A stretch of 64,000 bases of DNA from Polytrichum commune (taxonomy: Eukaryota; Streptophyta; Polytrichopsida; Polytrichales; Polytrichaceae): contig OX485803.1 of the NCBI GenBank assembly GCA_950295325.1, forward strand, positions 53,705,554 to 53,769,553, given 5' to 3'. Shown here one piece after another: positions 1-62,458 of the stretch (position 1 is the first letter of the stretch; the number at the start of each line of letters is the position of its first letter). Below the pieces are notes generated by a model that ran no database searches, was not told where the DNA came from, and saw nothing but the letters and a program-made list of their open reading frames with translations. A program made the translations under genes and the position numbers.

Positions 1-740
1 GCAACACTCAAAACACTACATGAATTGGCAAAACATTTCGAGCATGGAAACAACAACTTCTAATACCTTCTTGGGGATCATGGGTACATGGGTGCAGAGA
101 TGCTCATTCTCCATCGCATTGGGGTGAATGAGCGTCCCCAATGTGCCTTGCAATGCTATCGATGCATTCAACAAGATGCATGCATGTTATAGGGTGCGTG
201 TGGAATGTGCATTGGAGGCTTGAAGTGAAAGTTTGCAAGGTTGATGAAATGATTTGATGCTAAAAAATCAAAGCACATACACTTGTTTGGGTCTTGTGCC
301 CTTTGGACAAACTTTCTTCACCGAAGAGGGATGGATTGGTCGCAAGAGGTTACTAGAGATAGAGTTGAGAACCCAGAGGCTCATGGTGGGGAGGGAGACT
401 ATTAGTGGGTTGACTTTATGATTTCTTACATGTAAATATTTCTATGAATAGCGCCCCACCTTTCATTCACAAGCACATACATATCTTCTTGATTACAAAG
501 ACAGAGTCCATAGAATGGATAGTGTGCAAGTACAATGGAATTAGGTACATGTGAAACCTCAACCACATAAAGCTAGAAAGGATGATACACTAAAGCTAAA
601 ACAAATAGTCCATAGAGTAGATAGAATGCAAAAAATTGTGTGTGTGTGTGTGTGTGTATAAATACATGCTCAATTACATGAAGCTAGAATGAATAATATG
701 CTTGAATGAAAAAAACTTTTAATTTATTGCCAAAGTGAAA
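1..740. other. AT-rich non-coding stretch with a (GT)n run
   Basis: I see no supportable gene here. A short GT dinucleotide microsatellite lies at about 637-657. The rest is AT-rich sequence without long open frames or recognisable protein similarity. Confidence 0.5.
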
Positions 741-1740
741 TTTGTGTCAAAAATACATAGTTGAAGTAGTCGCCCTATCACTATATCTACCTACAAACCC
801 ATCAAGATCCTAACTTGCTCCCTAAAGCTCTTGTCTATAATTACACCTAAATCATGAGCCTTCTCCAAGTTGGCTATCTTGAAGTGTAACTCTTTTTGTT
901 CACTATTCTTGACCTTGGTGGCCAACAATGAGCCCCAAACCTCGCTACTAACCTTCCACATCCTTGCCATACTCTTAGACTATGCTCCTAATATCTCTCC
1001 CTTTGTCATAGGCCTCTTTGTATGATCTTGTGTACTTTTGATGCTAGCAACCTCGTTTGTGCTTGAAAGAGTAGCCGCATTATCATATGATGGAGTGGTT
1101 GGATGGGTCTCTTCCTAAGTGAAGGCGGAACCTTGCAAGATGGAGTGGTGGTGTTTAAGGACTTTCCTAGTTGCATGCTCATCAATGCTCTGTAGAGTCT
1201 CATCACATTGAGGAACGGCCTTCCCAGTACCTTGCTCATTAGATGTGCTTGTCTTAGTGGAGTTCAATGCGTCTCTTAGTCTTTCCTTTAGTGTCTCCTC
1301 TTGATGCAATGTTTAGGAAACACCTTCTTGAACCCTTCACACATTTTACGCCACACTAGATTTGGCATTGATTGGGTGACATTTTCCCTTATGCGAGAGT
1401 ATTTTGCAAAATGCACATAGTATGAAGGCGACATCTTGGCCAACATCTTCGATTCAAGTGCAGACATGTATCCCCTTTCGTTCCATGATCTCTTAGAGGG
1501 TGGCATAAATGCATTGGCACCTTTGGGCTAGGGCTTGGGTGGGGAGGGTTGAGTTGGAATAGAAGTTTGTCATGATATGGGGTCTCCATGCCATCTATCA
1601 CCTGATAATCCTCGTCCTCTCTTGCTAAAGACTCTATCAACACCTCAACCTTATTTGTCGTAAATTGATGACCATGATTGTGAGCTAGCTCAATAGCTAT
1701 CAAACTCTCATAGTTTGGTGTGTTCAAGCCGGGTCATTCC
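741..1740 (-). pseudogene. Decayed coding region of unknown family
   Basis: Reading the minus strand from 1740 to about 790, protein-like text continues across frame changes and stops. The first part (1727-1510) includes IAIELAHNHG; the second (1506-1288) is lysine-rich and contains MPPSKRSWNERGYMS; the third (1309-1115) contains LRDALNST; the last (about 990-790) is a coil-like segment with LHFKIANLEKAHDLG. No single frame spans them, so this is probably an inactivated gene or the accessory gene of a transposon. I do not recognise the family. The basic and coil-forming composition is directly visible, but function cannot be stated. It could also be chance open sequence, though several long fragments in one orientation make decay more likely. 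Confidence 0.3.
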
Positions 1741-2606
1741 ATACTTGCCAAAAAAAATTAAAAATAAAAAACCACAAGTGTGAGTAATGGAAAAAATTTA
1801 GCATGGCTTCTACACTAGATCACGAGGTTGCACAATTGCAAGTCTAGTTTAGAAAAAATTGAGCTTGGCTTCTGCACTAGACCATGAGCCCGGGGGGTGA
1901 ACTCTTCATACCACGTACATAATTAATGAGAGTGTAAGAATGGGTATTATTTGAGGCATTAGCATACATATGGGAGAGGTATTATTTTTCTCTACTGTGT
2001 ACATCTAGAAAGTTTATTAATTTTTTTGATGAACAAAAGGATGCCCTAAGGTTAGAGGAAAAAATTAACAATAGTTTCATCCAATTCAAAATTTCATCCA
2101 TTGTTGTCATATGGTCATAGTCCTTAATGACTATCATGTATGCTCTTCTTAGGGTTTACATTTGGTTCAAGGTCTCTAGTATTTACATACTAGGGGCTCT
2201 TGGAGCGCTCATGGGTTTCCTCGAGTTTTCTCTTTAAATTCCGGCTAATTTATTTGTGTTGTTGTCTTTGTTTGTTTGAGACAATCGATAAGTTACATAC
2301 TATGGATGAAAAAACATTAAATGACTTCCTCATTGGAAAGTGAAATTGAATATTATGTCCACTAAAGGCTTATTTAATCCATTATTTACTTAATTATATA
2401 TGTAGTGGAGGTATTTATCACATCAAATAAAAAAGCATAGTATAAATACATGAATATTTTTTCTAGCATTCCGCTAGTACGTATACATTTATTTTTTTCT
2501 ATGAACTTTTCGTATATAGGGGTTTAATTTTCATAGTGACCTACGCATGTCATTTAGTTCCCAATGAAGTGTCCACCCCCCGGGACCATGAGATTGCATA
2601 ATTGAG
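1741..2606. other. Non-coding AT-rich sequence
   Basis: No gene or clear repeat boundary is visible. Stop codons are frequent in all frames. Confidence 0.4.
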
Positions 2607-3050
2607 ATTCACACACGAGCCAAGAGCCGTGACCATGAAATTGTGAGAGCCCAAAAGAACGTGTCCCAAGGCCGTCCCAACACACCTCCAAAATCGTGTA
2701 GTGTGGTCACGGACCCTCGAGTGTAGTGTGAAGCAATATGTGACCGGGCCCTCAACCAAATGCTATTACAATGAATTTCTATCCATGCGGGTCCTCACAC
2801 ATGATGAAATAAAATGAACCAACGGTTGTGAGCGTTCGGAGTGTCATGGTCTCCTGGTTTTGGGTTAGGCCTACTTCCAAGAGGTGGTTATGGAAAATAG
2901 TCCAAGTGACCATGAAACATGATCCATTGGATGCCATGTAAGAATCCACGTAGACTTTACATCCATCTTGCATTCACGTACTCTATTAGTCCCTCAAGCG
3001 TAGTGTGAAGTGAACTTGGACTGGCTCCGCCTTTCCCACCAATGAGAATG
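2607..3050 (+). mobile_element. MITE family A remnant (both ends degraded)
   Basis: This stretch matches the better-preserved elements at 20900-21406 and 30395-30895 over nearly their full interior. It begins inside the left terminal repeat (TTCACACACGAGCCAAGAG, 2609 onward) and ends near the right subterminal segment CCACCAATGAGA. The outermost GGG(T/C)CAC bases and the right inverted repeat are missing or mutated, so target duplications cannot be read. Internal copies of a CCCTCAAG(T/C)GTAGTGTGAA motif are kept. No coding capacity is seen; it is a non-autonomous element, best assigned to PIF/Harbinger by its relatives' TAA duplications. Confidence 0.7.
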
Positions 3051-4261
3051 AGAACGATTAGAGGAAGAGAGGGAAACTTTCATATTTTAACATACCTCTC
3101 ATTCATCCCAAATAAAGACTTGACCCCCTATACTTACAAATCCACTTCATGATTAAATAAATAACCAACGTCGGACAATGTGACGTGAATTTGAGCCTGT
3201 TGGTCCTACCCTGCTCAAGAATTCTCTTGACGCAAGGTCAAGTTTACTGCCTACCTTACGGTGGATGGGCTCTTGGTTTCCTACCTATCTAGCTAGTTTT
3301 TTTCGTCAAGTAGAGAGATGATTTCACAGCGGGAATTGAACCGCCAACCACTCCATATGAAAATGGGTACCTCACCACTATCACCGAGTAATTTAAGGTC
3401 ATCTCAGACCAATCCGCTTCAAGTTTGTATGCCTCAAAAACTCCGTTTCTTAAGCTTGCATCATGCACATGATGGTGTTGTCATTAAAAAAGAGGCTCAA
3501 GTTTGTCTAAGATCTTGTACTTGTGCTTTTTCAAGTGTTGAGATCAATTCGGTGTTTGAATGATGACATGGCCTTCTCACCTACTACTTAGTACTACCAC
3601 CATAATGTTAGACTCTTTCCCAACATGAAATTTATTTGCGTGTCGAAGTACCGAAATAACACAAGGATTGATGTTGGACCGGTAACTTACACCTATAGGT
3701 GTATGCATGGTATTAATAATCAACATCCATAATGGTATCAACGAACCTACCCGTGGGTATGAAAATTATAGCACCAGTCAAATCTTGATGTTTGGTGAGT
3801 ATGTCAAAGTGAGAGAATTTCTTACAAGTTGGAGTTATTACTCAGGTCAATATTTTTTTTGGTAATTTTACCTAGAAATGAAGGTTCTTGCATGATACAT
3901 AGACCCAGATCATATTAACAACATAATTATCATTAATAAAGTATATCCTACTTGTATATTAAAAAAAAGTGAAATCTTCGTTATAGGAACATGAATGATA
4001 TATAAAAGAAAAAAAGGATTTTAGTCCATCTTTGGTGAAGATACACCTCATGTAGACGTGCCTTAGATGGGTACTTTTCGTTGCGCCCCCTTTGTCGAGG
4101 TCACCTTCAAACCCTCAGCAAACTTAGACGGTGTAACCCGCTGCTGACCGGTTTACATGGAAGTTACTCCCACCAAAATTAGATCCTTCATTTGATTTCC
4201 ATTTCTGGTGAAGGTGTTTGCACTCATATAATCTTAATTTTGTGATACATAATTTTAATGC
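3051..4261. other. Non-coding AT-rich sequence
   Basis: No supportable gene. Short open frames here lack codon structure and similarity to known proteins. Confidence 0.4.
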
Positions 4262-49448: not shown

Positions 49449-49605
49449 GTTACTAGTCACTAAAGTGTTTATTCTCGGCAAAGGAGAATAGTTTTGTTCC
49501 AATGGCCCTTTGTCCGGTGAACACTTGGTCATTAACATTACCAACATACACTTTATTCACGTCGACCTTGAAAAAGGTATGGCGTTTCTATCTATCTATA
49601 TATAT
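49449..49605 (+). mobile_element. 5'-truncated 3' end of the REL-type LINE, with target duplication
   Basis: About 150 bp is homologous to the 3' end of the element at 55105-60515 (there on the minus strand) and to 61748-61886: CACTTTATTCACG, then a small hairpin (ACCTTGAAAAAGGT) and a TCTATCTATCTATATAT tail. The flanks carry ATAGAAACATCAA (49436-49448) and ATAGAACATCAA (49606-49617), a 12-13 bp target duplication with a one-base gap. This marks a genuine, old retrotransposition event. Confidence 0.75.
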
Positions 49606-50534
49606 ATAGAACATCAAATTGTGTACAATATATCATTTAATTATACATTTTTTTATTGTATAGTTCTATTGTGGACTTTTGTTTTAGAAGCGGCTTCTAA
49701 AGTCCATGGACAATGCACTTGGTATCCATTGTTCTACACACCCTCTTTTGTTTTCAATCATGTTAAAGAGAATTTGTTGAGTTCTATGCACCAAATTACA
49801 TTGGATAAATAATCTCAACATATGTATCGTGGAAAAGATAAATGCTCATCATAAAAGTTGAGAATAAACTTACATCATCCATCCATCCACTTGTTCAAAT
49901 CTCCTTCATCCATATGTCAATCACCCCTTATGTTCGTTATGCATTTTGCTAACCTCCTCAGCTAGTTGCATCAATGATGATGATTGGCTACCCTTCCAAT
50001 GTTGAGCAACCAGATCGATCAACATGGTATTCATGAGAATATCACAAATGTTAGTTTCTCAAAGATAAGGAAGGGCGGCTTGAATTGGTCTTTGTAGACA
50101 ACTTTCGCCAACTACATCTGAATGTATTTACAAAATGCTAGTAGCATGTGTGATTGACAATGAAGGAAGGAGTATTTTGATATCACGAATGTTGTGTTCT
50201 TCATTGTTACTTCAAACACTCTTGATAGCAATCAAAACACAAAATTCATGATATACATAGACTTCTTCTTTACTCTACAAACTTGTACCATAGGTGCCCA
50301 TACAAAATTTAGTTTCAAAATGCAAATTTTTCCAAAGTTGAAGTGCACTCCACAAGACTAGAAATTGAATCAACCTTGAAAAAATAAAAAGTCAGGTGTG
50401 AATGTGTCATTTCCATGAATTCTATGTTCATCTATGACACATCTAATAGTGCATATAATATTTAGGGAATTTGTCCATGTGACTATGTGTTGAATTCTTG
50501 ATTTGAACCTGTAGAACAACTAGATGTTCAACCT
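49606..50534. other. Non-coding AT-rich; upstream of the FCP1-like locus
   Basis: No gene recognised. An upstream exon of the gene at 50535 could lie here, since its frame is open back to about 50504, but I cannot define one. Confidence 0.35.
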
Positions 50535-53054
50535 ATGGAAGAATATGATGAGGATGAGCGTCCGCAGTCAGCGGAAGCAACTCAATTGGAGGCTAATCCT
50601 GCTGCAAGGTCTACATTGAAACCGTCTGCAAGGAGGAAAATGAAAGCTCCCCGAAGGGGAAGGTCATCTCTACGTCCCCCTATAGTTGGAGATCATTCAC
50701 GGTCTTCGGAGGCAATGGAGCATTCTGGTCTTCATCGCGAGGTTGAATCTGGCCAAGTAGCAGATGTGGAGGATGTTCCGCAGGATGCCATCATGTATGA
50801 AGTTGTGCATGTTGAAGGGACAAGCACAAATTTGAACGTCAACTCACCTGTGGAGGACATTGCCGCTGCCGTTCTCGAGGTCCTAGGCCATGGGCGATCA
50901 CACCGAGATTCCCCTGATGTTGTGGATGCAGATGAGCCTACAGTAACGGCACCGTCCAATGAGGCAGAGGTGGTCATTCGAACCGAAGTCATATGCTTGG
51001 ATAGTGATGACGATATGCCCGAAAGATGCGTAGAACTAGACGTGAGGGTGAAGGTAAGAGATCGAGTTCCACATCGGGTTCGGGGGACGTTTGCTGACTA
51101 CATGATAGATGATTCCGAGGATGAAGACTATGGAAGCATGGGTACAACATAGTAAAACTCAACTTTGTTGATGACCCTCACCCGGTGTTTGCTGGGAGAC
51201 CTGACATGGGCAAGGAATCGGATGGGAAGGACAAGGTACATTTTTCCCCATTTGTGGACAAATATTTGGTAGAGGTTCCCGAGAACGTGCGATTGAATCT
51301 TGCGCATTTGTACAAGTCGTATGACTATCACAAGATGTTCGCTTATCTCTCCACTCTAGCGTTTTGTGAAGCAGTGAAGGTGAAACATATTCTTCATGCC
51401 GCTGCATTAAAGAAAATGAGAAAGAGATGGATAGCGTTCGAAGCTCCAAAACATCGTGAAGAACGAGGTCAATTCCCGGGATCCTCGGCCGCTCAAGCCA
51501 GCAGTGTTGTGGACTCTACCTTGGAGATCATCGACATTAGTGAAGTGCCAGAGTTTCCAAGAAGGGAAGTCTATGTTGCAGCTGCGGAGTCCTCAAACCC
51601 TCATGTCGGCCGTTTTGCTGAGGCTCAACCGGCATCGTCCGAAATGGTAATATATATTCTCCTCCCAATGCAATATTGTGTTCAGCTTAGAAGCAAAGTC
51701 CTCGTGATTTCTAAAAGTCTCTTTGCAACAGGTGTTGGTTGCGGTAGAACAGGATGTCATTCCACCGAGTTCTCATGATGACCCTGCATATGCTGGGGAT
51801 CCCCCCCTAAACCAAGCTCAAGGTATCATATATAGTGTTATTTGAATGCAATTGGTCCCACGGGTGAACACCTGTGGGTCCACCGGTTTGTATTTTTCAA
51901 TTTCCACACAAATTGTTATCTCATTATTAATACTTATTGTTATCTCATGACTAATACTTCTACAAAGGATTTTTGATATTGTGCCCACGGGTGTTCACCC
52001 GTGGGAGAGTATGGGTTTGAGCGTGTGGATCTCATAAGTCCTGTGTGCATGTGGTCATAGATTATACAGCCAATGCCGAAATACCTCCTTCGGTACGATA
52101 TTCTACCCTAGCTCGCAAAACTAATTAATAAATGTGCAGGCATTCTTTTCTCTTGCTGATGCATACTCATGTCTATCCAATCTGTTGTTTCCTTCGATAA
52201 AAATCCTTTAGAATCTATTGTGTCCTTAGATAAAAATCCTTTAGAATGACTTTCAATTTTGTCATCGCCAAATCCTCACCTCTCCAAGCACTGTTGTCCA
52301 TCGGAGAGAGAAGATATGGTTAGTGTTGGATGTCAACGGGATCCTTGTGAGGTCAACAAAGTGCGACAATGTCAACACCATGAAGACTCTTGAATCACAA
52401 CATAGCCCTCTGATAACTGGGGAGTTGGCTCCACTCTTTCTCCCATATAGTGCCCTCATACCTAGGAAAAGACTGGGACGGTTTCTGCGTTTTGCTCTTT
52501 CAAACTTCCATGTTGTCATCTAGTCGTCGAAGCTTATGAAGAATGTCCAGCCAATTGTCCGACACTTCTTCAATGGTTGTAGACATCCAGAGTATGTGTT
52601 TGGGCAAGAACTGTGTCACACTCTGAAGGATGAGAGAGGACAAGTTCTTCCTAGTCCTATGAATGTTGATTCAAGCTTCTTCATGAAAGACATGTGCGCA
52701 TTTTTTGAGTGGAGCCGGACGCATCCAGTGCCACATACGAAGCAACCCTCTCATAGAACTACATTACTTGTTGATTACTCCCCTTACAAATGCATCCTAA
52801 ACCGTCCTGGGAGCTATGTTAACCCTCCCCCATTTTTGTCAACCCAAAGCTTGGATACTTTGCATAATTACCTGCAAAGGCTCTTGAGTTCTCAACAGTA
52901 TGTGCCAGATTTTGTGGGGAGCAACCCTTATCCATCAGGCCAGGGACCCTTCAATCTAGAGCTGCCAAGTTCTAATATTTATAAGCAATCATTAGCTAGA
53001 CATAAAATACTGACTTCTGCCCGTATGGTTCCAGAGGCGCAAATGTGTATGTAG
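50535..53054 (+). pseudogene. HAD/FCP1-type phosphatase-like gene broken by an in-frame TAG
   Basis: Coding text runs through 50535-51152 (disordered, acidic and basic: KPSARRKMKAPRRGRSS), ~51125-51646 (FVDDPHPVFAGRPDMGK, then a helical ENVRLNLAHLYKSYDYHKMF), 51732-51822, 52061-52092 and ~52284-53054. The first two frames overlap out of register, so a frameshift or small intron lies at about 51050-51155. Splice sites ATG|GTAATA, CAACAG|GTG, CAAG|GTATC, CATAG|AT and TCG|GTACG keep frame. The last exon holds an FCP1/NIF-like HAD domain: KIWLVLDVNGILVRST (motif I as DxN instead of DxD), LSNFHVVI then SSKLMKNV, and LLVDYSPYKCILN (usual DDSP changed to DYSP). Between VVI and SSK, where this family has tryptophan, the codon is TAG (52521-52523). 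The frame is otherwise open to 53054. Plant relatives often have DLNG at motif I, so that change alone is not decay; the amber codon and DYSP indicate a pseudogene or a non-catalytic homologue. Confidence 0.7.
51857..52005. repeat. 22 bp palindrome, copies 1 and 2 (intronic)
   Basis: Copy 2 (51984-52005) has perfect ten-base arms CCCACGGGTG and CACCCGTGGG around TT. Copy 1 (51857-51878) has the same arms with one mismatch around AA, i.e. the other orientation. Both lie in the intron between the 51732-51822 and 52061-52092 exons of the FCP1-like gene. More copies lie at 53297-53318 and 54124-54664. Confidence 0.85.
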
Positions 53055-53296
53055 ATCCCCTATTGGGGCCGCCGATAGTGCACATGTGCACTTAGTGTAC
53101 ATTGTATTTGAAATAAGTGGAACTGAAACTTTGTTGGCTTTCAACTTCATTTGAAACTTGTTTTGGTTTTGTGGATTTTGTTCATGCAAACATGTTATGG
53201 TCATGAATGTATCCCACTGGGATTCTACTACTTTGCAACACTGCGGTGTTAGAGAATACCCGACTATTTACAACCAGAGTGAACGTCTGGCAGTGT

Positions 53297-53318
53297 CCCA
53301 CGGGTGTTCACCCATGGC
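53297..53318. repeat. 22 bp palindrome, copy 3
   Basis: CCCACGGGTG, TT, CACCCATGGC: the left arm is perfect and the right arm carries two changes. It lies ~240 bp downstream of the FCP1-like frame's stop. Confidence 0.8.
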
Positions 53319-53429
53319 AATGTGGTAGTTGATTCAATGAATGTATTAGACCACTTGGACAATGTTAGTTGTGTTATTGGGAATTATGGTTGTTATGGCG
53401 AATTTTAATATGTAGGACTTAGTCGGCTA

Positions 53430-54099
53430 TAATTCATTCTTTTTGAACATGTTCATCTTTACTACGGGCCAACCCACGGGCTCCTCTTGCACATAATGTC
53501 CTTCTTCCATGGACTCTTATGTTCTTGTATCCTAACAACATTCCCCATTCCAAACGCGACCTAAGAACTATATTGCCACTCCACCTCGTCGACAACGTGC
53601 TCCGGATGCTAACGCCGACTTTGCCGAAGTGACATCTCCATGCCCTAAGGTAATTCATTTTCCACATGAATCCCAATTTTTGTAGTTGTGTTTCATCCTA
53701 GGGATTCTAATATCATTTTGTCCTTTGTTGTGTTAAACACATATGCTCCAAACACGCGATGTTGCGCTTGCGCTTGCGGTGGTTGTTCCGGTCGCGGTTG
53801 CAGCTCCGGTCACACGCGCTCGGGTGAAGAGACACCTTTCTCTCCAAACCACTCACCCCAGTGAGCCCACAGGCTTGGGAAATAGTTCTGGATGTTGGAG
53901 GTGTAGTTCGCCCAATACCACCTCATCCATGTCTGATTACGTGGCTGCAAGGGTGAAACAACTTCGAGAAGCTACAGTTTTGATGACGGAGAAAAAACGG
54001 CTTGAAGAAGTCAAGCGCAAGCAATGTACTATAGCTCAAAGAGAACCTCATGACAAGATGTTGAAAAGGATTATTGATTCATACTCCTCTTTTAGATAG
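53430..54099 (+). CDS. Possible exons of an unknown small basic, coiled-coil protein
   Basis: Coding-like text includes YIATPPRRQRAPDANADFAE (about 53569-53628) ending at a plausible donor CCTAAG|GTAATT (53649), and a frame to 54099 with DYVAARVKQLREATVLM and EKKRLEEVKRKQ, a basic coiled-coil segment ending in a stop. An acceptor may lie near 53699 (TTTCATCCTAG) but the start is unclear. It could be 3' exons of the FCP1-like gene's original transcript, a separate gene or part of a mobile element. I recognise no family. Confidence 0.3.
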
Positions 54100-54123
54100 C
54101 CGGACCTTTATGGTTATAGATTG

Positions 54124-54664
54124 TCTACGGGTGTTCACCAGTGGATACAACAATTCATCTACTTTGTGACATATTTTGTGCCCACTGTGGCATCTATGAT
54201 TCATCCAAATGATTTTTTGACCCTCAGTTGTGTAGTCGGGTATGACTTGTAGACCTTCCTGCATGTGTTATGGATCTTGCATCGTGTGTTGCATGGCATT
54301 GGTTGGTCACGGGCGTTCACTCGTGGTTAGATGTATTTGTATTCTTTGAGTAGTATCAAGTGCCCATGATGGCTTTTATGATTAGACCCATTTGTTGACA
54401 TGCGCATGGTTGTTCCTTAGTGGTGTCGACTTATGTTGTGTTATGGATATAGGCTCATCTGTTGCGGGGTGTTGGTTGGTCACGAGTGAACACCCGTGGT
54501 TACAGCTGGGCTAAGTTTTTATTTGGGCAAGAACATGCATTATTGTAGCTTATATATATATACACCAATGTGCATGAAATAGTGTGTTAGTCTATCTTGA
54601 TGACCTTCCAGTTGTTCTACTAAACCTTGTCAATGATGGCAATTCACGGGTATTTACTCGTGAA
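54124..54664. repeat. Palindrome copies 4-7 in a ~170 bp tandem repeat
   Basis: Degenerate copies of the 22 bp palindrome lie at 54124-54145, 54308-54329, 54479-54500 and 54643-54664, spaced 184, 171 and 164 bp. At least the first units share long flanks: GTGCCCA(C/-)TG(T/A)TGGC, TATGATT, a 'TGTGTTATGGAT' block and TTGGTTGGTCACG before the palindrome. Copies 4 and 5 are in the TT orientation, copy 6 is in the AA orientation and copy 7 is TT-like. The arms keep complementary changes only partly. Confidence 0.75.
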
Positions 54665-55104: not shown

Positions 55105-55149
55105 AAGAAGAAGAAGAAGAAGAACTCCGGTCCCTACTAGGGACCGGAG
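55105..55149 (-). other. LINE 3' terminal hairpin and (TTC)n tail
   Basis: Arms CTCCGGTCCC (55125-55134) and GGGACCGGAG (55140-55149) are perfect inverses around TACTA. On the element's strand, the hairpin is followed by (TTC)6 (plus-strand AAG repeats 55105-55123). The fragments at 49449 and 61748 end in a weaker hairpin at the same position and a TCTATCTATC tail. A 3' stem-loop plus short-repeat tail is known for stringent LINEs and guides the reverse transcriptase to its RNA. Confidence 0.8.
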
Positions 55150-55695
55150 TGAATAAAGTGTCTGTTCGTAGGACAACCGTGGCCGTACCCCAGGGTAGCG
55201 GCATTGGGTGTAATACTACTTCACCCTTTGCAGGGAGTAGACACTATGTTAGTAACTGATGTTTTAACCGGTTGAACCGGGGGGGGGGGGGGGGAGGGGT
55301 GTGTATAGGGTGTATGGGTTTTAATTTAGAGTTTTGTGGGTCTTGCTACTTTGTTTGAGGCGAGAAGCGTGTGTATTTGTTTGGGGTATAAGTGGAGGTT
55401 GGTTGTATAGTTGGTCGCCAAGTCATGGTTCCAAGGTTGGTTGGATAAGGACGTGCGTGTCGTATTAATACGGTCCGGGTTCGATTCGCGTTGAATCCGT
55501 CTGAGCGTGTTAGTGCAATACACTTTGACTTGGTGCTGCAAGTGAGGTAATCATAGGCAGGAAAATTATGCCAACCAACCGGCTACTCCCCGCCTTTCTG
55601 AGCTATAGGTGGTAACTTAATAACTAGTGGTCTTACCACTACCCCTCTTTTGTTTGATCGGGGGGGGGGGGGGGAAGAAAGATGTTGTGTTGGGT
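55150..55695 (-). other. LINE 3' untranslated region with two C-tracts and an internal duplication
   Basis: Two long homopolymers (plus-strand G runs at about 55279-55296 and 55661-55676) mark similar sequence: after each, GGGTGTATGGGTTTTA-like and GGGTTCATGGGTTTATA-like blocks follow. A block ACTTTGTTTGAGGCGAGAAG (about 55349) resembles the coding segment near 56236-56255, so part of the ORF 3' end seems duplicated here. A plus-strand GGGTTCGATTCGCG (about 55485) resembles a tRNA T-arm / pol III B box. Confidence 0.5.
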
Positions 55696-57985
55696 TCATG
55701 GGTTTATATTGTGGTTTTGTAGATTTGTGATGGATTGGTTGTTTTCTATTCGTCTTTTATGAATCAATATTGAATGTGCATATTTTGTAGCGATTATATT
55801 TATTTGTTTGAATGTGCTTCTAATTTGGGATGTAGGGAGTTTAAGTTGTGTTTCAAGTTCATTCATCGAGGGGATGTGAGTTGTGGCTCTGGCTCCTGAT
55901 GCTAGTACGATAAGTGGGGCTACGTTCCAACCCCTTGCTATGATATTGTCAATGAGTGGTTGATATTTTGTGATTTTCCTCTCCCTTGTTTCTACAGAGA
56001 ATCTATCGTTACAGTATGTAAATTCAATGAATTGTATGGTAATTGTTGGCGTAGGTGCTTTTGGAGGTGGGGAGTTGTATGGGTGGCCAAGCAAGCATAT
56101 TATGTCGGGTTTGAGCCTAGCGTTACAGGAGCATCTTTGGGTGTTGCATGTGCATGGTAGCAACCATGTTGGGACTGTGTTTTCTTGGGGTAGTTCATTG
56201 TATGTGCCTGCATTCATAAGTATGTAGTTTCTTGTTACTTTGTTTGAGACGAGAAGTTGCGTATTTCCCATAGCTCTGTTATGTCTATTTGTTATGAGCG
56301 CGTGGATGTGTTGTTGTTTGCATTTTAGGAGTACGTGTAACCATGTATCTGCTTCTGGTGAGTTACATATGGGACATGTGTGGGACGGATATGCGATTCT
56401 ACCAAAGAAGAGTTGTTTCCTAGCGTGTCCCATATATTGTCCAGTACGGAATTTTATTAGACATGTTTTTTGTCTATCCGTGATGACTGGATTATTCCAA
56501 AAGTCATTTGATAATACTTTGTCAATATTTTTGTTGTCGAGCCACTTGTGTAATTGGTGTGTTTGGGTAGCTATGAGGGCTAGGTTGTGTTTTTTGTCAT
56601 ATTTAGTGATATATTTACCAAGGTGTCGGATGGGGCCTTTGTCGGGTGTTTCTTGCATTGAGTGCCACCAACCTTTTTGGAGGTAGTACGGTGTGAGGTG
56701 TGCATGTTCATGTGTGGCTATGGCATCTCTATGGTCTAGTTCACATCCCATTTTGGCTAACTTGTCCGCTTGTTCGTTACCGCTTATATTCGTATGGGCT
56801 TTGACTTTGTGTAGTGTAGTGATTTGTGTTCAGGATTGTAACAAGAGGTATAAAACGTTAAGACAGTCTGTAAAAATATGTGCAGGTTCATTTCGGTATG
56901 TAGTGGTGAGAAGGCATAGAGTATGATAGACAACCATCATTTCGGCTCGTAGTATGTTTTGGAGTCCTGGTAATCTTTCTGCAATTTTAAGATTTTTGAA
57001 AGCGTTGTATATGCCGTATCCTGCTTTTTCACATCTCCAATTTTCGTCAGTTAGTGCTTTGGGTGGAATAAATGACCCATCGGTATAGTAGCAAAATTGT
57101 GGTGGGTATTTGGGGGGTAGGCATATGTTGTGGTTTGTGATTGGTGGAATATTGGTAGGTTGGGTTGGGGGCGAGAAGGGTGGATTTGTAAGTTGAGACC
57201 ATTTCTTACTATGGTTTACTGGTGTGTTTGTTGGAGTGGGAGGCGCGGTTGTGGTAAATATACTGGGTATATGTAAAGATGTGCCGATATTGTGTATATG
57301 ATCGATGTATCCTATAGGGTTAATGGGCGTATTTTTGTGGTGTATGCATAGGATTCTAATGTCACAACTTTCTGTTCGGGGTTCAATTTGTAATTCCGGT
57401 GGTATTGTAGGCTCTTCATATGTAATGGTGTTTGCTTTGAAGTGTGTGATGACGTGCGAGTCCGGAAAATGACCTTCATGGGGATGGAGGTTGTGGTACC
57501 AAGTTGGGTCGGTTGTTATGAGTATTGTTATTGTGTCTGGGTTGTTTTTGGCAGCAAGTCTTGCCCAGTGTAGGGCTTGTTGAGTGTCAATTTCTGTGTG
57601 AGGATGGGCATACCCATTCCCTGTCCATTTATGTTGGAATGCGGTCCCTATTGACCCGAATACTTTATCTCTAGGGAATGGAGAAGAGAATTGTCTTAGT
57701 GAGGTGGAGCATGTTACTGGAGATGAGAAGTGTGAGTGTGTAATTTGAAATGAATCAATAATGTGCTCGAGGATGGCATTGGGTAATGTGTATTGGGCAA
57801 GTTTGAGGGGGTCGTTTTTGGGCATTCTATATTTGTATCGTTGGTATAACCATGCAACTTCCTTTTCGAATGATTGTATGGGGGGTTCTAAGTTATGTGG
57901 TTGGTGTAGTGTGTTTTGGTATTGTTCCCATAGCCATTGTAATCTCTTCTCTGGGATGGTAATTAAGTGGCGTCCGTCATCATCA
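55696..57985 (-). pseudogene. Linker block, RNase H, CCHC and REL endonuclease part of the LINE ORF
   Basis: The frame (with one TGA at 56830-56832) first encodes an unassigned block with FGSIGTAFQHKWTGNGYAHP (about 57660-57600). RNase H follows: YYTDGSF (Asp near 57080), LRAEMMVVYHTL (Glu), HIFTDCLNVLYLL (Asp) and, after the TGA, NEQADKLAKMG. Then come CPICNSPEADTWLHVLLKC (CCHC), NRHNRA (RHN motif), LKPDIICLL (KPD), IQFIEFTYCND (acidic residue of the nuclease core) and ERKITKYQPL (basic residue), the signature series of REL endonucleases of R2-type elements. All nuclease residues I look for are kept. Family knowledge: REL nicks the target for target-primed reverse transcription. Confidence 0.85.
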
Positions 57986-60515
57986 TAAATATGTGATACA
58001 CCATGTTGGCTTTGGATGGTGGTTTGTGTGCAAGCAATGTCATGATCCGGGTTACATTCATTAATATGAATGTGGCATAGGGGTATGATGTGTGGGGGGG
58101 GGGGGGGATGTGTCTTGTGTCTCTTGTTTGTGCTTCATCGAAATTGGTTTTTAAAATGTAGGTAAAGTGTTGATTTTGTTTGTGAGTATAGTATTGAGTT
58201 AGTAGTAGGATGTTATGATTGATGGTGTTTTGGTTCTCCCATGGGAATAAATCTCTTTGAGGAAGCCATTTATTGTATGTTAATTCGTTGTGGAGTATCC
58301 ATTGACATAGGTAGGATGTATATTTCTTCGTAATTTTGTTTTTATCTTTGTAGGTGTGGGGGCAGTCATTTATTATAGAGTGGATTGGGAATTGTGTATG
58401 TTTTTTTGGGATGTGCGGTGGTGGTTTTGGGAATTCGGGTGGTGGGGGCGGTGGAGATGGTGGGGGGTGTTCGTTGTGGTTTCTTGTTCTTGCATCTATG
58501 TGGTGGTTTTGTATTATGTATGCATTTTTTAGTGTGTTTGGTGTGGCATGCGTTAGGCAATTATTTGGGCATTGGTTGTGACATGATGGTTCACAAAAGA
58601 GTATTCGGGCTTGGTCTAAGGCAACTTTGATTGTTTTAGTGGGTGTGTCGTAGTAGGTTTTGAATTCATTGTTTGTCATTAGTTGTGTGCCATTAGGTTG
58701 TATTATTTGTTTAAGTTCGGTTATGTTGTGGAGTATTAATTTATGTAAATATTTTAGGAATGTTGTGGGGGTTATTGTAGGGATATTTTGTGCTTGACGC
58801 ATCCATTGGGTTTCGAGTGGTGTAGGGAGGAGGGGAAATTTTTCGAGTGTACTTTTTAGGTGGGCGCCACTAGTTGTTTTGAGTAAAAATAATGTTCTTG
58901 TGATTGGTGATCGTATACAATCTTGTTGGGATATGCGTGGTATGCTTAGTGAGCCTCCATATTTGGTAAGTATGTGTTTTGTTAGTCCTTTGTATATGTA
59001 ACCAAGTCTCCCTTTGTCGTTGAGGGCATTAATGAGTTGTTCGCCTATGCATGTAATGTATGCATTTTTTAGGGAGAAGGCTTCTGTGCCAAACATATTT
59101 TGGGGGAGTTGTGTGATTGCGTTTGACATGCATTTAGGAAGACCACATATTGTTTTGTATAGAGCGATTATTATTTTATCAAGTTTCTTAATTGCAGGTA
59201 GTGAGTACGGGACGGCATAGAAGCTATAGGCAATGCCGGCTCTTATGATTGTGTCTACCATTTGTATTTTTTGTTTCATGCTGGCTGGGCATGCTATTAG
59301 TAGTTTACATTGATTAATCAATTTGGTTGTTGTTATGTGTGTTTGTGTTTTCCATTGTAGTGATGGGACCAAATTTATTCCAAGGCAGACATATGACTCA
59401 TGTTGGCTTAGGATAGGAATATGTTGGTTCCTAAAATTTATATTAGTATTTTGTAAGTACGTTTTGAAGGCGCGATGATTGAGTTTGGTTTTGTTAGGGC
59501 AACCAGTGACTGCACATTTTGTGATGCCAAGGTCCATTTCTGCCCATTCACAGTATTTATCGAGTTTATTTAATTAGAGTTGAATGGATGCTAAGTTATT
59601 GGATAATACTGCTAGGTCGTCTGCGTAGGCTGCAGAGCTTAGTATTGTGTCAGAGGTTTTAAAGATGTATCCATTGTTTCCTCGTTGTAACCATCTAAGG
59701 AGTGGCTCTAGGAAAATTATGAAAAGATATGGACTTAGTGTGTCGCCTTGTATAGTTCCTCTTTGGATAGGAATTGGTTGGGTCTGACCGAAATGTTCTC
59801 CAATAAACGTGGTAGTGGACTGTGAGTAGATATTACCTACTAAGGTTATGGCATCTTGAGGGTAGCCTAGGTCTTTCATAATGGTAAGGAGTCTGGCGTG
59901 ATCGATAAAGCCGAAGGCGTTTTTAAAGTCGATGTATAATATGTAGATGTCTTGGTCGGTAAGTCTTGCATTGTCTAGTGCTGCAATGAGAGTTTGAAGT
60001 TGCCGGACGGTGCATCTTTCGGCTCGAAAGCCTTCTTGGCTGTCGTGTAAAATTTGGTATTTTTCTCCATATGAGGAGATGATACTCGTAAGTGTGCTAG
60101 TAAATAATTTATAAATTGTGTTGGCTAATGCAATAGGCCTATGGTTGGTAAGGTGATGGAGGTTTCATTTTTTGTATAGGAGTATTGTAAGGCTGGTTTT
60201 CCAAGATTCAGGGATTTGTTTTTGTTTATAGCAATGTGTAAAAAATAATAAAAGAAGCTTATGGAATCTTGGTGGCATAGTTTTTAGTATGATGTTAGGG
60301 ATTTTATCGGGTCCGGGGGCCTTTCCATTGACCAAGTTTTGGAGGCATATGTCATATGTTGTTTGATCAAGATATGTATGTAGGGGGGTAAGTGCATCTC
60401 CTCTTTTTTCAATAGTGTATCCGTTTAGGTCGTGCCACGGATATTGTCTGACTCCGCATATGCAGTGTGGTGTATGGTCAGGTTGATTTCGCAAGACTTC
60501 TGTTGAGAGTTGGGT
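57985..60515 (-). pseudogene. Reverse transcriptase part of the LINE ORF
   Basis: One frame is open from 60515 with in-frame stops at 60165-60167 (TGA, after TILLYKK) and 59574-59576 (TAA, after NNLASIQL). Motifs in order: VNGKAPGPDKIPN, a HLTNHRPIAL block just after the TGA, LYIDFKNAFGFIDH (the motif with the first catalytic Asp; FG in place of the usual FD), RGTIQGDTLSP, and AAYADDLAVL with the YADD box at 59627-59616. After the RT come a thumb region (CLGINLVPSLQWKTQTH) and a long linker with a proline-rich stretch (about 58450). The frame ends at 57963, where a one-base shift in an ATGATGATG run (about 57977-57990) moves the reading into the next segment. Confidence 0.85.
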
Positions 60516-61090: not shown

Positions 61091-61747
61091 AGATAGGCTT
61101 GATGCAAATTATGGTAGACCATGGCAATAAGACAATTGTCAATGGCTGCCATGGTTATTTTTTTCCAACAATCATTTTTGTAGGGCATACTAGTTAATAC
61201 GAGGCAAATGACCATTCTTCCAAATGCGCAAAAGTTGAAGTTTTTGGAGTTTGTTGTATGTGTGATTGAAGTAGACAATTTTTTTGAGTGAATTTTTTTT
61301 CACAATTTTATCTTCTTTAATGATAGGATTGTTGCAAGATGTGAGTGGTTCTGAAACCCAACAATGAAACCAAAATTCTTCTTGGATGTCATGGAGTCAA
61401 CCACAATTCGGATTGCATATACCTTCATTAGGAAGTAGAAATTTTAATAATTTTCAATTGTTTAATGATAAAGATGTAGAAGTTATTGGAACTCAAATGC
61501 CGCAAAATATAGAGGGTAGTAGAGATATGAACATGAGAAGAGAGACATAACATATTACTAGAAAAAGATACGATATCAACAAGAAGAAGAGAGGTAGGAC
61601 AGTAGCTTCAAAATCAAAATGAACAAAAAAAAAGACAAAAAAAGTAATTGAAGTGGAGCTGGGAGATTCGGAAGGTGAAGAAGAGGCTCTTATTAAATGG
61701 CGAGATTATGAGATCAAAATTCTCATAACTATTTGTAGTGAGATGAA

Positions 61748-61886
61748 TAGTGCCCATCCTCGAAAGAAGAGAGTAGTATTGCCCCAATGTTCCCTTGTCC
61801 GGTGGGCATTGGGTCATTGACATTACGAACGGACACTTTATTCACGCCGGCCCCTTGCTAAAAAGGGACCAGAGTTTCTATCTATC
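61748..61886 (+). mobile_element. 5'-truncated 3' end of the REL-type LINE with 12 bp target duplication
   Basis: The fragment runs from TAGTGCCCATCC to a TTTCTATCTATC tail, with AACGGACACTTTATTCACG and a GGCCCCTT...AAGGGACC hairpin as at the LINE 3' end. TAGTGAGATGAA flanks it on both sides (61736-61747 and 61887-61898), an exact 12 bp target duplication. It interrupts the PIF accessory ORF: removing it rejoins the reading frame text ...ITICSEM and KEKFVKF. Confidence 0.9.
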
Positions 61887-62458
61887 TAGTGAGATGAAAG
61901 AAAAATTTGTAAAATTTGTAAGAAAACAAGGTATGAATTAGTACATTGGATCCATTAATATTCATTTAAAAATGATTGATTGAATAAAATCTACAAAAAT
62001 TTAGACTTAGATTAGACCAATTTGGCCTTTGTCTTTTGTCCTTGGCTCCCCCCTTTCTTCTTATTGAGGATTTAGGCGTTTTGTAGAGATTGGGAATCGA
62101 CCTCATGTTCTCTTGGTTATAGGCTATTTTAGAGCTCATATAGACCACAACATTCCTCCCCTCAAGTTGATAGAGTTTTTGGCATGTAATATTTAATCCC
62201 ATTGTATTGTATTATGAAAATCTATTACATTTTATTTTATAAATTCATTTTTATTATATTATAAAATCTACTGGTTATATGTAAACACAAATGAATACTT
62301 GAATAAAGTTACATGCTCATATGATATTCAATTTGCGCAATTTTGAAAGAACTTGTTTAGCCTGTAAGAAAAAAATACAAAATTAAACTAATTGAGTACA
62401 AAAATGACAAGCATTCAAATGAAATTTAAGGTCAGACGAGAATGTCAATATTATGAGA

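Follow-up and report, generated by a model that had tools for sequence, protein, structure and literature searches.

Domain content of the LINE copy in the window

The window analyzed here is the whole stretch of 64,000 nucleotides. Its minus strand carries a 5'-truncated and decayed LINE copy that preserves a reverse transcriptase (RT), an RNase H and a C-terminal residue series of the restriction-like endonuclease (REL) type (Table 1). Comparing the ORF2 of a relative to the window with tblastn yielded two blocks of 79% and 81% identity (both E = 0.0), and the resemblance to a LINE is therefore not due to chance. All the boxes that an earlier note on this DNA had named for the RT, the RNase H and the REL series are present on this strand. 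Its RT call is confirmed by Pfam (RVT_1; E = 6.8e-23 on the open piece 60164-59574). The RNase H of the window is interrupted at 56830-56832 by a stop and has lost 25 codons near 56,842, and its two pieces remain under Pfam's cut-off (E = 0.02 and 5.1e-4); the call is borne out by two intact relatives (RNase_H; 4.6e-13 and 3.6e-12), with 4e-15 in another search of relatives.

We counted three stops, one frameshift and one 25-codon deletion, close to the "about four" lesions estimated previously. Compared with the extent then given (55696-60515), the element continues further on the 3' side, to about 55,105; on the 5' side, where the limit is approximate, DNA homology sets in near 60,487 and the open frame starts at 60,515. 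A target duplication of this copy was looked for and none was found. Terminal inverted repeats were considered as the sign of a DNA transposon and rejected, because the pair consists of the element's own 3' tail facing an opposite-strand tail fragment at 61747-61888. The possibility of a chromodomain in the conserved YLCQW...W segment was also rejected: the Chromo model gave E = 0.12 in one protein and matched two of nine members (best 0.017), and no solved chromodomain was matched. A chromodomain bait found no match in the host genome, which is uninformative.

Table 1. Parts of the LINE copy and their positions in the window.
Feature	Position	Strand	Basis
LINE copy as preserved	55105..60510	-	blastn to L005/L006/L007, 78-88%; tblastn with relative's ORF2; 3' tail
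Reverse transcriptase (GTIQGDTLSP and YADD boxes)	59372..60345	-	approximate limits, transferred from RVT_1 match in L003
Stops inside RT	60165-60167, 59574-59576	-	tblastn with relative's ORF2
YLCQW...W segment, conserved, RT to PCIF1-like domain	58170..58331	-	alignment; chromodomain-like by eye only
Frameshift in C-run, approximate place	58098..58110	-	junction of two tblastn blocks (frame -3, frame -2)
PCIF1-like domain, outer limits approximate	57330..58080	-	PF12237 core 57607-57906; hhalign 95%
RNase H (TDGSF, AEM, TDCLN, H..GNEQAD)	56743..57093	-	Pfam RNase_H in two pieces; tblastn
Zinc knuckle C-x2-C-x9-H-x4-C	56320..56376	-	C, C, H, C invariant in 6/6 aligned copies
Putative restriction-like endonuclease	55963..56286	-	residue series in alignment and family B
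Residues of putative REL	RHN 56286-56278, KPD 56112-56104, E 56025-56023, K..KY 55977-55963	-	
3'-terminal hairpin CTCCGGTCCC-TAGTA-GGGACCGGAG	55125..55149	-	motif common to relatives' 3' ends
(TTC)n tail, element's 3' end	55105..55124	-	

Intact relatives in the host genome

The host is a moss-like plant, placed among land plants by its SAUR and LHCII genes. Relatives in its 408-Mb genome retain an upstream ORF1 and, towards the N-terminus of ORF2, both an APE and 2A-like NPGP motifs; the APE is missing from the window copy because of its 5' truncation. In intact copies, ORF1 is followed by a single ORF2 with a length of up to ~2,900 codons, which encodes in order an N-terminal extension ending in one or more 2A-like NPGP motifs, the APE, the RT, a PCIF1-like domain, the RNase H, the zinc knuckle and the REL-type block. 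The ORF2 of L001 (2,924 aa) presents Pfam matches to RVT_1 (1.5e-29), RNase_H (3.6e-12) and PCIF1_WW (1.3e-10). The APE, whose presence in host copies the earlier note had raised, was matched in family A (L027; Exo_endo_phos, 1.3e-5) and in family B (Exo_endo_phos_2, 2.4e-7 in L167 and 9.7e-8 in L168; Exo_endo_phos, 5e-7 in L167). In L001 and L003 it escaped Pfam; its motifs QETK, GDFN and SDHYP were read in L001-L004.

All ten copies read at length contain a 2A-like NPGP motif. The full 2A core, given as (D/G/C/N)(V/I)ExNPGP in the available text of PMC12846837, is found in at least one motif of only four of them (L003, L005, L007 and L027). An RRM guessed by eye in ORF1 found support neither in Pfam nor among solved structures, and ORF1 is therefore called an open frame only. 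Its N-terminal part looks low-complexity and may be non-coding.

One copy is ~14.6 kb long and bounded by a 14-bp target duplication; such duplications were found on three copies (13, 11 and 14 bp). Three copies (L001, L002 and L004) are mutually 99.67-99.70% identical, with 13.3 kb at 99.67% between two copies, and the family has therefore been recently active. The recent activity proposed previously thus holds for the family, whereas the copy in the window is a decayed relic, a point absent from the earlier note. Four identical 181-bp 3' ends occur among the 40 candidates scored out of 1,599, and at least 150 matches to the family were scored, of 1,483 candidates. The hairpin motif at the 3' end of the window copy also ends L001, L003, L004, L006, L012 (L005), L014 (L007) and L170, and a related form was seen by eye in family B. 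The tails are (TTC)n in the window copy and (TATC)n in other subfamilies. Nine 3' flanks compared by eye differ and present no common target. No viral relatives of the family were found in scans of viral contigs.

Placement of the reverse transcriptase and comparison with known LINEs

The best relatives of the RT among solved structures are R2 proteins (2.2e-30), followed more weakly by L1 ORF2p (1.2e-17). In the RT tree, the family forms its own clade (100/99), while L1Hs and six host L1 form a clade that excludes it (99/98). A union of the family with host L1 was rejected (p-AU = 0.007); the unions with R2 (p-AU = 0.19) and with all L1 (p-AU = 0.14) were not. The tree omitted the host loci L002, L004, L007, L023, L025, L158, L164, L165 and L166, and L160 and L161 were left out since they have no frame with an RT box. 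It included five group II RTs from 117 matched stretches (80 listed); L064 was tried and gave no row. The tree covers the family, R2, human and host L1 and group II RTs, and the family is likened to Dualen/RandI by domain layout.

Dualen/RandI elements of green algae and cryptophytes share with this family an APE, an RNase H and, going by the residue pattern here, a putative restriction-like endonuclease, a probable position outside L1 and a non-A tail, which is (ATT)n or (CTATTT)n in RandI (PMC3747384). The present family differs in its land-plant host and its size of ~14.6 kb and, judged by the available descriptions of Dualen, would also differ in the PCIF1-like domain that separates its RT from its RNase H and in its 2A-like motifs. 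R2 and other REL LINEs present the closest RT sequence and a CCHC knuckle preceding the REL residue series. However, R2 is site-specific and has a single ORF without an APE, whereas the present family has an APE, an RNase H and an upstream ORF1, and its nine flanks share no target. Plant L1 elements also combine APE, RT and RNase H, but the family has its RT outside the L1 clade, a putative REL and a non-A tail.

We consider it probable that the element in the window is a decayed member of a large and recently active non-LTR family with the Dualen/RandI layout; less surely, its PCIF1-like domain may have been captured and kept as a binding module. Alternatively, the family could be an independent lineage of APE LINEs in which a REL was gained or retained separately, with a dual layout that is convergent or deeply ancestral. 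The p-AU values for R2 and for all L1 are compatible with such a lineage, and the Dualen descriptions, in their available parts, mention neither a PCIF1-like domain nor 2A-like motifs nor a size of ~14.6 kb. Yet, in those sources, an APE and a restriction-like endonuclease within one LINE are described for Dualen only, and descent is a likelier source of the set of APE, RNase H, knuckle and REL than convergence. We therefore regard an independent origin as rather unlikely and retain the Dualen/RandI-like reading.

A PCIF1-like domain downstream of the RT

The domain located between RT and RNase H shares homology with PCIF1, the methyltransferase that forms m6Am at mRNA caps (Pfam PF12237; hhalign). 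The earlier note had overlooked both this domain and the 2A-like motifs. PF12237 was matched above its cut-off in the window (3.2e-10 and 1.8e-10) and in five of five aligned members (best 9.4e-12), and hhalign against human and zebrafish PCIF1 segments gave 95%, with a score of 49.1, while none of 60 column shuffles scored above 17.0. In family B, the matches (25.5 and 27.4 bits; 1.1e-5 and 3e-6) do not reach Pfam's cut-off of 31.1 bits, and solved PCIF1 chains match weakly (E = 0.014 and 0.11). PCIF1 baits of 74 and 60 aa, used to look for a host gene as donor, matched nothing, which is uninformative because introns split genes.

The domain shares with PCIF1/CAPAM a homologous methyltransferase core, with FGSxG, SSPxTC and the flanking core (FxSPxxC...FGSxG) kept, but it lies inside a retrotransposon polyprotein and its NPPF motif is replaced. 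Motif IV reads NPPF in none of 21 copies (AHPH in 16, AHPP in two, GHPY in one and AFPT in two); this position is HPHT in the window and FPTD in family B. A trace of the helical domain (LEPP.QSFE) scores -3.2 bits only, and no WW domain was seen in the Pfam tables.

With domain limits set by hand, dN/dS for the pairs L001/L003 and L005/L006 was, respectively, 0.094 and 0.092 in the PCIF1-like domain, 0.052 and 0.055 in RT, 0.045 and 0.083 in RNase H, and 0.079 and 0.080 in REL. These four regions are under purifying selection, and the PCIF1-like domain is selected about as strictly as REL. For the young pair L005/L007, the value of the PCIF1-like domain (0.25) exceeds that of RT (0.14) and is close to that of REL (0.23). 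The pairs L001/L005 and L003/L006 are largely saturated (PCIF1-like dN/dS undefined and 0.119, respectively).

With less certainty, the altered motif suggests that the domain was captured and is now a pseudo-enzyme, which may bind RNA ends. According to the available text of PMC10544176, the N and F of NPPF were mutated to inactivate PCIF1, and a title cited there names Drosophila Pcif1 catalytic-dead; PMC9479742, in its available part, reports the change of F to H in the NPPF of Drosophila Pcif1, without m6Am. The guess of cap binding is countered by the location of the match, which covers the methyltransferase core, while PCIF1 binds the cap through its helical domain (PMC10544176, same text). 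The domain could instead still methylate adenosines, in the RNA or DNA of the element, by means of an unusual motif IV. Its purifying selection near that on the REL nuclease, its retained core motifs and the two copies with HPP, the nearest form to NPP, would fit such an activity. However, the loss of both N and F in 21 of 21 copies, the FPTD of family B and the Drosophila precedent make it an improbable one, and we favor the pseudo-enzyme.

Within the available text of PMC5890265, LINE and DIRS elements of Symbiodinium likewise acquired nucleic-acid methyltransferase domains under selection; those are cytosine DNMTs or Dam-like, whereas the present domain is a relative of a cap enzyme inside the RT ORF, with an altered catalytic motif.

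The C-terminal knuckle and REL-type block

The residues of C-x2-C-x9-H-x4-C, RHN, KPD, FIEFT and K..KY are invariant in six aligned copies, save for the K of KPD (K/R), and the same series is present in both family-B copies examined. The earlier note had named a failure of the C-terminal block to match REL profiles as a refuting result, and sequence searches returned no Pfam model and no plausible solved structure. Single-sequence fold prediction on the window sequence gave a pLDDT of 32 for this block and of 38 for the PCIF1-like domain, both too low to be of use. Because of its residue pattern and position, we assign the block to a putative REL-type nuclease. In the available text of PMC5678591, REL LINEs are described with a knuckle spacing of x7-8, which the x9 of this knuckle exceeds by one.

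It is very improbable that the element is a diverged L1 or RTE of plants in which a zinc-finger tail, and not a true REL, forms the C-terminus: RNase H is known in plant L1 too (PMC4640811, in its available part) and the C-terminal block is without a profile match, but the RT tree separates the family from host L1, its RNase H, as judged by eye, carries the H of D-E-D-H-D where the archaeal-like RNase H is described with R in the text available, and the REL residue series is nearly invariant.

Proposed mechanism and significance

The RT would recognize the 3' hairpin and tail and would prime at a nick in unspecific target DNA, by target-primed reverse transcription. The RNase H would remove the template, and the two nucleases would share or divide the cuts of both target strands. 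The captured cap methyltransferase may have lost methyl transfer with the replacement of NPPF and may have been kept for binding, most likely of the RNA 5' end or cap, which could assist in selecting or completing the element's own transcript. We tentatively extend this into a more speculative proposal: a two-nuclease LINE of a land plant captured PCIF1 as a non-methylating module recognizing the cap or transcript end, such that intact capped element RNA would be the preferred template. If true, part of the retrotransposition machine would be derived from a cap enzyme.

In the available portions of these sources, a 2015 listing confines Dualen/RandI to green algae (PMC4438587, Table 3), the class was in 2025 annotated for cryptophytes as well (PMC12747079), and a 2022 review gives L1 and RTE as the only LINEs of land plants (PMC9033089). 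Our claim of novelty is scoped to the open-access literature retrieved. An abundant, recently active and putatively two-nuclease family in a land plant offers intact material on why a LINE keeps two endonucleases, and its PCIF1-like domain, kept by selection about like REL, suggests that a cap enzyme can join retrotransposition.

An RTE bait of approximate sequence matched mainly host L1 and the present family. It also hit a few decayed loci, possibly relics of RTE; the two of these examined had no usable frame. Several L1 copies with long frames coexist with the family in the host genome.

The LINE copy in the window and its relatives

The earlier note described a LINE combining a reverse transcriptase (RT), RNase H, a CCHC motif and a restriction-like endonuclease (REL), and considered it recently active. 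The LINE itself stands and is richer than first reported, but the copy in the window is a relic. The ORF2 of L005, a related locus elsewhere in the host genome, aligns by tblastn to 60485-58098 (81% identity) and 58080-55708 (79%) in two frames. The window copy is interrupted by three stop codons and, in a run of C near 58,100, by a frameshift; its RNase H has lost 25 codons. On the 3' side, the DNA match to relatives extends to 55,105-55,122 and the copy terminates with a hairpin followed by (TTC)n repeats. We looked for a target-site duplication around this copy and found none.

Coordinates of the LINE copy in the window
Feature	Position	Strand	Evidence
5'-truncated LINE copy	~60,510-55,105	-	open frames, tblastn, DNA match to relatives
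Open-frame pieces of a single LINE reading	60515-60165, 60164-59574, 59573-57963, 58134-56830, 56829-55696	-	tblastn with L005 ORF2

Two fragments of ~140-150 bp at 61747-61888 (+) and 49456-49607 (+) match solely the 3' end of the LINE family, and may be either copies with an extreme 5' truncation or SINEs that share the LINE tail; the match at 61747-61888 explains inverted repeat I1 of the window. Within 51851-54502, a palindrome-like unit around CCCACGGGTGAACACCTGTGGG occurs several times, and a 66-bp direct repeat is found at 54264 and 54437. The segment 25718-25923 (~206 bp) presents a 75% match to the 5' flank of the related locus L004 and appears to be another dispersed repeat.

We searched the host genome (407.8 Mb, 64 contigs) with the window RT and obtained at least 150 scored matches (150 scored among 1,483 candidates), many of them with frames of more than 1,000 codons. 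Ten copies were read at length: L001-L007 and L027, which belong to the family of the window copy (family A), and L167 and L168, which represent a related lineage (family B). For ten further loci (L028-L037), 1.3 kb spanning the PCIF1-like domain was read. The LINE family was active very recently: L001 is 99.67% identical to L002 over 13,320 bp and 99.70% identical to L004 over 7,623 bp. Target duplications flank L001 (14 bp) and, with a few extra bases at the 5' junctions, L004 (13 bp) and L002 (11 bp). Four copies share an identical 181-bp 3' end, and two more match it at 98-99% (among 40 scored of 1,599 candidates). By eye, nine 3' flanks present no common sequence, and therefore no fixed target was seen.

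The L001 copy (~14.6 kb) contains a 1,833-codon open frame (1,817 codons when counted from an ATG that lies no more than ~20 bp from the 5' end) followed by a 2,924-codon ORF2, whose ATG overlaps the end of ORF1 (ATGACTAG). Upstream of the L005 copy, a 1,381-aa open frame (frame 3-4145, flank joined to the copy) appears by eye to resemble a Ty1/copia polyprotein.

Domain organization of ORF2

ORF2 presents, in order, an N-terminal extension with NPGP motifs, an APE endonuclease, RT, a conserved linker, a PCIF1-like domain, RNase H, a knuckle and a REL-type block. Pfam matches in L003 and L001 were, respectively, 2.6e-29 and 1.5e-29 for RVT_1, 4.6e-13 and 3.6e-12 for RNase_H, and 3e-10 and 1.3e-10 for PCIF1_WW. 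The APE of these two copies is without a Pfam match, yet its motifs are present; APE is matched in L027 (1.3e-5) and in family B (L167, 2.4e-7; L168, 9.7e-8), whose domain order is the same.

All ten copies read at length contain NPGP motifs, and four contain at least one with the full StopGo core (as defined in PMC12846837), so that recoding at these motifs would be a fair guess in those four only. The N-terminal part of ORF2 in L005 and L007 contains three tandem NPGP motifs. A similar TWNNS stretch stands before most of them, which would fit duplication of a 2A-like module.

The six-copy alignment of the C-terminal block retains C-x2-C-x9-H-x4-C, RHN, PD(I) after K or R, E, and K..KY. In REL LINEs, a knuckle CX2-3CX7-8HX4C precedes the restriction-like endonuclease, according to the available text of PMC5678591; the spacing here (x9) is one residue longer. 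Searches by sequence matched no plausible solved structure and no Pfam family, and we therefore call this putative REL block by residue pattern and position, not by profile. Directly before KPD, four more cysteines (CTC....RC.C; alignment residues 123-132 of window:55699-56520:-) do not vary among the six family-A copies and have counterpart cysteines in family B. Lying between knuckle and KPD, they possibly form a second zinc site.

A PCIF1-like domain

PF12237 (PCIF1_WW) matches the window copy (3.2e-10) and all five aligned members (best 9.4e-12). In the host genome it is found at at least 150 places (150 of 697 candidates scored, all over the cut-off), counted irrespective of whether they lie in a LINE copy. 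With a five-member profile, the only plausible solved structures reached were those of zebrafish and human PCIF1, and both matches were weak (E 0.014 and 0.11). An 11-sequence profile aligned to two PCIF1 segments with an hhalign probability of 95% and a score of 49.1, relative to a maximum of 17.0 in 60 column shuffles.

The catalytic NPPF of PCIF1, an mRNA-cap m6Am methyltransferase, is aligned to HPHT/HPHN in the LINE domain. Among 21 copies, this position reads AHPH (16), AHPP (2), GHPY (1) or AFPT (2), and never NPPF; family B is altered still more in motif IV (AFPTD). In the accessible parts of these sources, N and F mutations are used to inactivate PCIF1 (PMC10544176), m6Am is absent alongside a changed NPPF in Drosophila Pcif1 (PMC9479742), and a title cited in PMC10544176 describes the latter as a catalytically dead protein that still regulates gene expression and fertility.

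In two pairs of copies, dN/dS was 0.094 and 0.092 for the PCIF1-like domain, 0.079 and 0.080 for REL, 0.28 and 0.20 for the linker behind the PCIF1-like domain, and 0.04-0.14 for other linkers. The young pair L005/L007 gave 0.25 (PCIF1-like), 0.14 (RT) and 0.23 (REL). The domain is under purifying selection, near the level of REL in the first two pairs. It must therefore serve the element and, with NPPF replaced, most probably in a role other than methyl transfer. That it binds the RNA end is a rather doubtful guess. Since family B has the same architecture, the domain would predate the divergence of families A and B.

RT phylogeny and comparison with known LINEs

By phmmer, R2 proteins are the closest matches of the family RT, followed by L1 ORF2p, whereas the host's own L1 presents the reverse order. 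In an RT tree of 27 rows (12 family, six host L1, human L1, three R2 and five group II introns), which contains long branches of which the program warns, the LINE family forms a clade (100/99) and L1 forms a clade excluding it (99/98). The AU test rejected a grouping of the family with host L1 (p-AU 0.007) and did not reject one with R2 (p-AU 0.19) or with all L1 (0.14).

APE and a restriction-like endonuclease occur in one LINE in Dualen/RandI (PMC3636483, PMC4640811), the group to which the earlier note had likened the element. The family would work like a Dualen-type LINE, the likeness being one of domain layout. In the portions available, Dualen/RandI is listed as green-algal only (PMC4438587), reported in all core-Reinhardtinia (PMC8226300) and annotated as a cryptophyte repeat class (PMC12747079), and solely L1 and RTE are given for land-plant LINEs (PMC9033089). 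Judged from titles and abstract beginnings, none of the literature matches listed concerned Dualen/RandI in plants or mosses, or PCIF1 in retrotransposons. Methyltransferases known in LINEs include the cytosine DNMTs of Symbiodinium (PMC5890265, in part).

Host genome

The host genome contains 58 light-harvesting-family matches and 13 SAUR (auxin-inducible) matches, a family typical of land plants. Among the solved chains listed for the host LHCII protein, the best after the much longer 9vfj were 8htu and 7xqp, which we take to be from the moss Physcomitrium. We take the host to be a moss-like land plant from these genes. Fourteen light-harvesting matches with identical scores lie within ~95 kb (C5:1751760-1846160) and probably form a tandem array. 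A few decayed RT places, including C2:29546365 and C5:48993990, were reached only by an RTE-like bait and are possible RTE relics.
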